From Williamsia maris (lineage in GTDB: Bacteria; Actinomycetota; Actinomycetes; Mycobacteriales; Mycobacteriaceae), in NCBI RefSeq assembly GCF_024171815.1, contig NZ_JAMTCJ010000002.1, positions 558,001-622,000 of the forward strand: a stretch of DNA of 64,000 bases, given 5' to 3'. The position numbers were made by a program, and so were the translations under genes. The notes under the pieces were generated by a model that was not told the DNA's origin, did not search any database, and saw only the letters and a list, made by a program, of their open reading frames with translations. This document shows, piece after piece, positions 51,699 to 54,344 of the stretch; position 1 is the stretch's first letter, and each line of letters starts with the position of its first letter.

Positions 51699-52049
51699 GT
51701 CGGGGACCTCCCTTCGCGCCATCAGCGTGTCGCCGTGCTTCTTACGCCGTTTGATGATAGCGATTCAACTGGCCAATCGTGCCATCACGGCATCACCCGC
51801 CACGCTAGTCACAGGTGTCGCAGATGGGTAACCGGCCCCCGATCGGATGGACGCATCGCCCCGACCTGCGCATATGGATCACGCACCTGTGGCCGGGTGA
51901 CGCCGGGACGCCGCAACGGATTCGACGACGACTGGGTGCAATGGTGCGGGCGTGACGATTTAAGTGCGGTGGGGACTGCGTGCTATCGTCTTGCAGTCCG
52001 TTTCTGCAGCGGATTTTTCACCGCCCGGTCGCTTCGACGGGCAAGTCAC
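51699..52049. other. fhaA-tRNA-Leu divergent intergenic region
   Basis: This 351-bp gap contains no convincing gene. It should hold the promoters of the fhaA operon (leftward) and tRNA-Leu (rightward; a TATCGT near 51983 is a possible -10). At 51991-52002 it contains one copy of a 12-bp repeat that recurs after the tRNA. Confidence 0.5.
51991..52006. repeat. Direct repeat, left copy, flanking tRNA-Leu
   Basis: TTGCAGTCCGTT followed by TCTG matches the right copy at 52227-52242 in 15 of 16 bases. The two copies bracket tRNA-Leu. Confidence 0.6.
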
Positions 52050-52135
52050 GGGCGAGTGGCGGAATGGCAGACGCGCTGGCTTCAGGTGCCAGTGTCCTTC
52101 GGGACGTGGGGGTTCAAGTCCCCCTTCGCCCACCA
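52050..52135 (+). tRNA. tRNA-Leu (CAG anticodon)
   Basis: This 86-base class II tRNA has acceptor GGGCGAG with TTCGCCC, anticodon CAG at 52083-52085 inside a CTGGC-GCCAG stem, a long variable arm (TGTCCTTCGGGACG) and T-arm GGGGG-TTCAAGT-CCCCC. The 3' CCA is encoded (52133-52135), unlike the Ile and Ala tRNAs of this window. Confidence 0.97.
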
Positions 52136-52151
52136 TCAGGTTCGACGGGAC

Positions 52152-52180
52152 AGCCCGGATCGCGACATGCGATCCGGGCT
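52152..52180 (+). terminator. Intrinsic terminator of tRNA-Leu
   Basis: A perfect 12-bp stem (AGCCCGGATCGC at 52152-52163 with 52169-52180) and a five-base loop are followed by TTCTCGTCTC. Confidence 0.85.
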
Positions 52181-52226
52181 TTCTCGTCTCTCGGGCGCGG
52201 TCACGCGATCCGGCTTTACAAAATAT

Positions 52227-52242
52227 TTGCAGTCCGTTGCTG
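52227..52242. repeat. Direct repeat, right copy, flanking tRNA-Leu
   Basis: TTGCAGTCCGTT followed by GCTG is the second copy of the repeat at 51991. It lies in an unusually AT-rich spot (ACAAAATATTTGC). Confidence 0.6.
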
Positions 52243-52313
52243 TACTTCCCCCCGGCACCGCAGACCCTGGTGCCTCGACTCATCAGTGAGCATCGACGTC
52301 CGAAGGGGAAATC

Positions 52314-52844
52314 ATGAACTCACCCACCACCACCCGCGCCCGCATCGGGGCCATCGCCGCGGCCGCGGCCGTGGTCGCCGGTGGCATCGGCCTCGCCACC
52401 CCGGCGGTCGCGAACGCGGCACCGGTCACCAAGACCATCACGATCGACGCCAAGACCGCAGGCGCGAACAACGTCTTCGCCCAGAGCGGTGTGACCGTGG
52501 CCGCGGGGTCGACGGTGTCGGTGACGGCGACCGGGACGGCGACCTTCGATCCCGGCTACACGACCGACGTCGCGGGGCCGAACGGCTTCTCGACCCTCAA
52601 CTGCACCAGCTCGCCGGAGAGTCAGTGCGTGCTCGCCGACCGCCCCTTCATGGCGCTGGTGGGCAAGGTCGGCACCGCCGATCCCGTGCTGGTGGGTGCC
52701 GGCCCGACGACGCTGTCCGGCTCCGGCCCGCTGTCGTTCGCGTTCAACGACAACGTCGACGGCTTCGCCAACAACGAGGGTTCGTTCACCGTGACGATCA
52801 CCTACACACCGCCGTGCACCGGGATCTTCTGCTTCGGATCGTGA
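52314..52844 (+). CDS. Secreted protein resembling PA-IL (LecA) galactose-binding lectin
   Basis: This 176-residue protein has a clear signal peptide (basic start, AAAAAVVAGGIGLATPAVANA, cut near residue 36). The mature part resembles the Pseudomonas lectin LecA along its length: a beta strand TGTATFDPGY where LecA has ASYG, a Cys pair (NCTSSPESQC), FMALVGKVG, then SFAFNDN and FANNEGSFTVTI. In LecA the calcium ligands include Asp100, Asn107 and Asn108; here Asp146, Asn153 and Asn154 have the same spacing. Binding of galactose-type sugars such as arabinogalactan or host glycans is inference. GAAGGGGAAATC precedes the ATG. Single gene between terminators. Confidence 0.65.
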   Translation: MNSPTTTRARIGAIAAAAAVVAGGIGLATPAVANAAPVTKTITIDAKTAGANNVFAQSGVTVAAGSTVSVTATGTATFDPGYTTDVAGPNGFSTLNCTSSPESQCVLADRPFMALVGKVGTADPVLVGAGPTTLSGSGPLSFAFNDNVDGFANNEGSFTVTITYTPPCTGIFCFGS

Positions 52845-52884
52845 TCCCCGGCAGCACAACTCATCTGGAGAGACACTGAACCCG

Positions 52885-52922
52885 ACGAGCCGGGCAGTCC
52901 CATCCAGGGTTGTCCGGCTCGT
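52885..52922. terminator. Hairpin between the lectin-like gene and the GAP-family gene
   Basis: ACGAGCCGGGCA (52885-52896) pairs with 52911-52922 over 12 bases with one G-U pair. It lies between convergent genes and may serve both directions. Confidence 0.7.
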
Positions 52923-52956
52923 TCGTCGTTCGTCGTCGAGTGCCTCGCGACGGCGC

Positions 52957-53613
52957 TCAGCCCGCCAGCGAGTCGATGGCGAGGACGGCGGCGATGACCG
53001 CACCGATCATGAGGATGACCGACACGACGCGTGACGCGATCGGCAGCGCGCGTTGCATGCGGTCGAGCAGGCGCTGACCGGTCTCCTGCGGGAACAGTGT
53101 CAACGCGAGCAGCAGGCTCGTGACCGGGACGAGTGCGATCAGTACGAACACGACCGACACGACCACACGGACGACCGTGCCGTCGTCGGCCATCACCGCG
53201 ATCGCCCCGTAGAACGGCGCCGACGTCAACGACTGGATCGCCCACGTGAGCAGTCCCAGCGCGAAGGCGCCGAGTGGACGCACCGTGCGTTGTACGGGGA
53301 GCGATGTGGGTGGACGACGGAAGCCCTGCACCGCCATCCCGAAGACGACGACGGCGATCACCAGCGCGATCACCGCGATCGCGGTCGGGGGGAACGCGTC
53401 GATCGCGCGATGGACGAGCCCGAGGATCACGGTGAACGAGAACGCCAGCGTGATCGCCAGTCCGCACACTCCGCCGACCACGAAGGCGCCTGCCGTCCGG
53501 ACGTAGGCACCTCGCGACGGGGCGGAGACCCATACATAGGACACCGCGAGCAGAGCCAGGACGTTGATCGAGTCGACCGCCGCCAGCGGGACGATCGCAA
53601 GAATCGAGTTCAT
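52957..53613 (-). CDS. GAP/LysE-superfamily membrane protein
   Basis: This 218-residue integral membrane protein with about six helices starts MNSILAIVPLAAVDSINVLAL. This N-terminus, with its buried Asp-Ser and the mid-protein SAPFYGAIAV, resembles the GAP (Sap) family of the LysE superfamily. Mycobacterial members export glycolipids and sulfolipids. Substrate unknown. The ATG at 53611-53613 is chosen because earlier starts add 16 non-hydrophobic residues. It lies downstream of marC on the same strand, with a 61-bp gap. Confidence 0.7.
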   Translation of the reverse strand: MNSILAIVPLAAVDSINVLALLAVSYVWVSAPSRGAYVRTAGAFVVGGVCGLAITLAFSFTVILGLVHRAIDAFPPTAIAVIALVIAVVVFGMAVQGFRRPPTSLPVQRTVRPLGAFALGLLTWAIQSLTSAPFYGAIAVMADDGTVVRVVVSVVFVLIALVPVTSLLLALTLFPQETGQRLLDRMQRALPIASRVVSVILMIGAVIAAVLAIDSLAG

Positions 53614-53674
53614 CGTCGCTGATTGTGCCGCAGGGGTGTGCCGCCCGAGACCACCAGGCACCGGCTGTGCACAC

Positions 53675-54292
53675 TCAGCGCGCGTCGATGAACCCCATGA
53701 TCGAGTTCGCGATGAGCTGCACGGCGATCGCGGCCAGCAGCAGACCGGCGATCTTGGCCACCAGCGTCACCCCGCCCACCCCGAGGATGCGGATCAGCAC
53801 GGTGGAGAACCGCAGGACCAGGGCGAGAACGAGATGGACGGTGATGATCGCCGCGGCGATGGCGATGTAGGCCGCTCCGTGGCCGTCGGCCTGCGACACC
53901 GCGACGATGACCGCCGCGATGGCGCCCGGTCCGGCCAGCAGCGGGGTCCCCAGCGGCACCAGGGCCACGTTGACGCCGTCGGCGGCCTTGGGTGAGGACG
54001 CGTTGCCCTGCCCGGTCAGCAGCTGCAATGCGACGAGCAGCAACAGCAGACCGCCTGCGCCCTGCAGCGCCGGGACGCCGATGTGCAGGTAGCTGAGGAT
54101 GAACTTGCCGCCGAGGGCGAACGTGCTGATCACCAGGAAGCTGATCGCGGGGGCCTGCCAGGCCGCACGGTGTCGCTCGGCGGGCGTCTGATGTCCCACC
54201 AGCGACAGGAAGATCGGGATCTGACCGGGCGGGTCCATGATCACGATCAGCGTGATGAGGACCGTTGTGTACTCGGTGACGTCGAAACCCAC
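53675..54292 (-). CDS. MarC-family integral membrane protein
   Basis: This 205-residue protein with six membrane helices has the MarC signatures: IMDPPGQIPIFLSL near the start, and VPLGTPLLAGPGAIAAVIV after a short loop in the middle. MarC was once tied to multidrug resistance but the function is unsettled. The gene is followed by the GAP-family gene on the same strand. Confidence 0.88.
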   Translation of the reverse strand: MGFDVTEYTTVLITLIVIMDPPGQIPIFLSLVGHQTPAERHRAAWQAPAISFLVISTFALGGKFILSYLHIGVPALQGAGGLLLLLVALQLLTGQGNASSPKAADGVNVALVPLGTPLLAGPGAIAAVIVAVSQADGHGAAYIAIAAAIITVHLVLALVLRFSTVLIRILGVGGVTLVAKIAGLLLAAIAVQLIANSIMGFIDAR

Positions 54293-54344
54293 CTGAGCAG
54301 TGTGGGCCGCGACCGCCCGTCAGGCGAATCGCGGCCCGATCCGA

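Follow-up and report, generated by a model that had tools for sequence, protein, structure and literature searches.

A LecA-like protein with a predicted signal peptide and a conserved candidate calcium loop in the actinobacterium Williamsia

The PA-IL lectin LecA of Pseudomonas aeruginosa (PDB 1l7l, 2vxj) is a homotetramer built on a jelly-roll domain with a calcium loop; Tyr36 contributes a backbone oxygen, and Gln53 lies in the loop that helps to set specificity. His50 of the same specificity loop also contributes to setting specificity (PMC8350385; PMC4463410), while in the galactose complex the bound calcium is in contact with O3 and O4 of the sugar (PMC4463410). PllA of Photorhabdus (5odu, 5ofz) binds alpha-galactosides. 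EclA of Enterobacter cloacae (6ygq) is a two-domain protein in which fucose is bound by the other domain; in the N-terminal domain (EclA-N), calcium is coordinated by Asp114, Asp121 and Asn122, the main-chain oxygen is supplied by Asn54, and the calcium site has been kept with no sugar ligand known for it (PMC11875179). In the literature covered here, LecA-type lectins have been characterised from Gram-negative bacteria only. Here we describe a LecA-like protein of Williamsia, a soil actinobacterium, encoded within a 64,000-nucleotide stretch of the W. maris genome (NZ_JAMTCJ010000002.1, positions 558,001 to 622,000), the whole of which is referred to below as the window (Table 1).

Table 1. 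Features of the LecA-like locus, in coordinates of the window
Feature	Position	Strand	Basis or remark
tRNA-Leu (CAG)	52050..52135	+	upstream neighbour, not part of the system
Ribosome-binding site AAGGGGA	52303..52309	+	4 bases 5' of the ATG; read by eye
CDS of putatively secreted LecA-like protein	52314..52844	+	176 aa plus stop; conserved in Williamsia
Predicted Sec-type signal peptide, residues 1-35 (PAVANA/AP)	52314..52418	+	by eye
Predicted LecA-like jelly-roll domain, residues 38-165	52425..52808	+	AlphaFold2 pLDDT 83, pTM 0.81; Z 13.0-13.5
Phe78, aligned with LecA Tyr36	52545..52547	+	alignment
Cys97 to Cys105 pair, on either side of the counterpart of the LecA His50/Gln53 loop	52602..52628	+	Williamsia alignment (C60, C68)
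Predicted calcium loop, Asp146 to Asn154 (D-x6-NN)	52749..52775	+	alignments; conservation
Cys168-x4-Cys173 C-terminal tail	52815..52832	+	invariant in Williamsia; absent from LecA

The initial annotation of this locus proposed a secreted, galactose-binding counterpart of LecA. The reading frame was confirmed at exactly the coordinates it gave, and F78, C97, C105, D146, N153 and N154 all occupy the positions assigned to them. This is a real gene, as it has a good ribosome-binding site and a Sec-type signal peptide, is conserved in six of the eight Williamsia genomes (it is absent from G002 and G003) and has a low dN/dS (NG86; about 0.36 for the window against G005, about 0.12 for the window against the G001 piece and about 0.19 for G006 against G007). 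The claimed signal peptide stood up as well: read by eye, it has a basic n-region, a hydrophobic core and an AxA cleavage site near residue 35, and the same layout recurs in the copies of G004, G005, G006 and G007, a conservation that suggests that the protein would be exported.

Two of the six Williamsia copies, those of G001 and of W. herbipolensis (G004), are frameshifted (L004:1501-2100 and L010:1188-1700), and the gene may therefore be dispensable. Together with the two genomes that lack it, these frameshifts would fit a gene that is decaying or was spurious from the outset. A decaying or spurious gene is nevertheless very improbable, given that four genomes carry the gene intact, that dN is well below dS and that the motif residues described below are invariant; the two frameshifts, moreover, do not share a site and might stem from errors of assembly.

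The gene occupies two positions within the genus, as seen when L014, L015 and L016 are compared with 51700-54300 of the window (gene names read by eye, except MarC). In the window, G001 and G005 it lies between fhaA/tRNA-Leu and a gene for a small membrane protein, beyond which comes marC, while in G004, G006 and G007 it lies between genes for an MFS transporter and a histidine-phosphatase-like protein, which stand side by side in the genome of the window with no lectin gene between them. Yet the G004 protein groups with that of the window in the tree (90/92), and the gene has therefore probably moved within Williamsia. The neighbourhood contains no operon partner that points to a target. The adjoining membrane protein (52957-53661, minus strand) is a small multi-pass protein next to marC with no Pfam family above cut-off, and in G001 and G005 it likewise accompanies the lectin gene.

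Against the Pfam PA-IL profile (PF07828), both the whole protein (E 0.0011) and a six-frame search scored 19.5 bits and the mature domain 20.3 bits. The similarity to PA-IL anticipated by the initial annotation was thus recovered, but under the curated cut-off of 22.5 bits, and the protein is consequently classed as homologous to LecA, or LecA-like, and not as a member of PF07828. In searches of the PDB, the single protein matched LecA at E 0.014; a genus profile of six Williamsia proteins gave as best matches LecA (5.1e-5), PllA (0.002), 30ew (0.004) and EclA-N (0.026), and a wide profile of 12 relatives matched PllA at 1.1e-11, its best match, and LecA at 3.8e-7. Alignment with hhalign to LecA-type stretches gave probabilities of 96-98%. 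A profile of the LecA, PllA and 30ew stretches gave the actual sequence 24.3 bits, whereas none of 20,000 shuffled versions exceeded 11.4 bits, which excludes a chance match as the source of the overall similarity to the LecA family. We conclude that the resemblance to LecA is homology.

The predicted structure agrees with these profiles. An AlphaFold2 model of the monomer from eleven sequences reached the confidence given in Table 1, and a model built from six sequences a pLDDT of 74 and a pTM of 0.71; for both, PA-IL-type lectins were the only Foldseek matches with E < 0.001. In VIA-align comparisons of the predicted model, the Z score was 13.5 with LecA (115 of 118 residues, 3.1 A, 24% identity), 13.4 with PllA and 13.0 with EclA-N (2.2 A over 107 residues), while the next match after these lectins scored 8.3. 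At Z 7-8, M60 peptidase domains and a functionally uncharacterised protein of Bacillus anthracis score too low for the Williamsia protein to be placed among them. Profiles, predicted structure and conservation thus support a PA-IL jelly-roll fold, to which the C-terminal cysteine tail is attached in a part of the AlphaFold2 model that has low confidence.

The calcium loop of LecA can be followed into the Williamsia protein by alignment. HMMER places D146, N153 and N154 opposite D100, N107 and N108 of LecA, the equivalence that had been proposed, and in the alignments the ligand pattern (Asp followed by Asn/Asp-Asn) falls within a single loop before the last strand. Within Williamsia the motif ND-x6-NN-x-G (residues N145, D146, N153, N154 and G156) does not vary, and N145, D146, N154 and G156 are also invariant across 12 diverse relatives; N153 is replaced by Asp outside Williamsia, the choice that EclA has made with its Asp/Asp/Asn pattern and PllA with the Asp that opens its DN pair. 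The exact D-x6-NN spacing emphasised by the initial annotation is present but says little alone, with three occurrences in the 87,253 open-frame residues of the window, two of them in this very protein, where the second copy (D45/N52/N53) is not conserved. The evidential weight is carried by the conservation of ND..NN.G in relatives, not by the spacing. From this we infer that the protein would bind calcium and, through it, a sugar, with the geometry of the calcium site taken solely from alignment.

The part of LecA that sets specificity is replaced in Williamsia. Its counterpart is a longer and variable loop framed by Cys97 and Cys105, which are invariant in the genus and probably form a disulfide. 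LecA His50 and Gln53 are not kept: they align with Ser100 and with Ser103/Gln104, which vary within Williamsia. The nearby cysteine pair that had been read as a LecA trait does exist, but the LecA cysteines C57 and C62 align with L107 and F112, so the two pairs are not the same and lend no weight to a likeness with LecA. Phe78 is aligned with Tyr36 by HMMER, as had been noted, and every Williamsia copy has one of these two residues at position 78, but it is not kept in wider relatives; nor is an aromatic residue diagnostic here, since Tyr36 gives a backbone oxygen and its counterpart in EclA is Asn54. In sum, the Williamsia protein resembles LecA in its fold and calcium loop, and PllA, which has a short specificity loop, in its fold, and differs from both in its signal peptide, longer loop, different cysteine pair and C-terminal cysteine tail.

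These differences bear directly on the proposed binding of galactose. A true galactose-binding counterpart of LecA would be expected to share its calcium ligands, as this protein does, and it is the calcium of LecA that contacts galactose O3 and O4 (PMC4463410). The loss and variability of the His50/Gln53 positions, the longer loop with its other cysteine pair, the Pfam score under the curated cut-off and a tree position outside the LecA/PllA group (see below) nevertheless argue against it, and EclA-N demonstrates that such a calcium site can be kept with no known sugar. We therefore regard galactose binding as distinctly unlikely. Arabinogalactan, biofilm or a host as targets of the protein are speculative.

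No convincing copy of the gene was found in the other 53 relatives outside Williamsia; weak matches in G035 and G040 were dropped, being a stop-interrupted frame and a match to the signal peptide. A first scan of genome contigs with the single protein as query returned no match, an NCBIfam search no meaningful match and a PHROGs search no assigned family. An origin from a phage or plasmid was rejected, as the phage set held no close match (best E 0.9), a scan of viral contigs with the G006 protein found nothing, and only one distant plasmid protein was detected, that of Streptomyces sp. NBC_00467 (WP_327687213.1). This is the nearest relative found outside Williamsia (43% over 65 residues); an in-frame upstream extension resembles a signal peptide, while its calcium loop is two residues shorter and has DN instead of NN.

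When the search was widened to the class (394 genomes) and the phylum (396 genomes), with a limited number of candidates scored per genome, a few distant relatives were returned. Two are secreted single-domain or short proteins (L018 and L029); the LecA-like domain also forms the C-terminus of a caspase-like (Peptidase_C14) protein (L027) and of a Ser/Thr kinase (L028). Two further relatives are that of a Chloroflexota MAG (L023) and the Streptomyces plasmid protein. The caspase-like protein (L027:1495-2799, minus strand) also has a transmembrane-like segment, and in the actinobacterial kinase (L028:1504-3402, minus strand) the domain is found where a sensor domain would sit, probably outside the cell. 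In a tree of a small set with long branches, LecA, PllA and 30ew cluster together (100/99), and all Actinomycetota and Chloroflexota rows fall on the other side. There the Williamsia protein is found with secreted Actinomycetota domains that stand alone, with others fused to a caspase or a kinase, and with the domain of the Chloroflexota MAG. On this tree, a LecA ortholog acquired by recent transfer from Pseudomonas is rejected; the Williamsia protein is a LecA-like relative of LecA and not its ortholog.

Domains fused to a kinase or a caspase-like protein need not bind sugar, and this raises the possibility that the Williamsia protein is an exported envelope or matrix protein of PA-IL fold in which calcium is purely structural and no sugar is bound. 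The calcium of EclA-N, for which no ligand is known, is a precedent (PMC11875179), and the sugar-contacting residues of LecA have not been kept. The calcium loop, however, is the most conserved part of the protein, and sugar is bound through it in both LecA and PllA, the two stand-alone relatives that have been characterised and whose ligand is clear. We consider a purely structural calcium rather unlikely.

Based on these findings, we propose, with a probability of roughly 0.6, that the gene product is exported and binds glycans in a calcium-dependent manner, and that its specificity loop is stapled by a disulfide. The product would be a small exported protein with a single PA-IL-type jelly-roll domain, in which the Asp146-Asn154 loop most likely binds one calcium ion that would hold sugar hydroxyl groups as in LecA, and binding would take place on or outside the cell envelope. 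Which sugar is bound is not predictable, because the specificity loop of LecA has given way to the longer one closed by Cys97-Cys105. Against this proposal we count that a fold does not show function and that EclA-N has kept its calcium with no known sugar.

More tentatively, and with the odds against it, LecA-like calcium domains might make up a broad extracellular family, as yet undescribed, that is found in Actinomycetota and further afield and has the Williamsia protein as one of its stand-alone members; in a Ser/Thr kinase and in a caspase-like protein, domains of this family would act as sensors. Bacteria would then have a general module for glycan sensing, of which LecA represents one specialised branch. 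The kinase- and caspase-fused relatives hint at glycan sensing by the LecA-like domain. The LecA family would be extended by a secreted form with disulfides from an actinobacterium of the mycolic-acid type, which would offer a calcium lectin of untried specificity.
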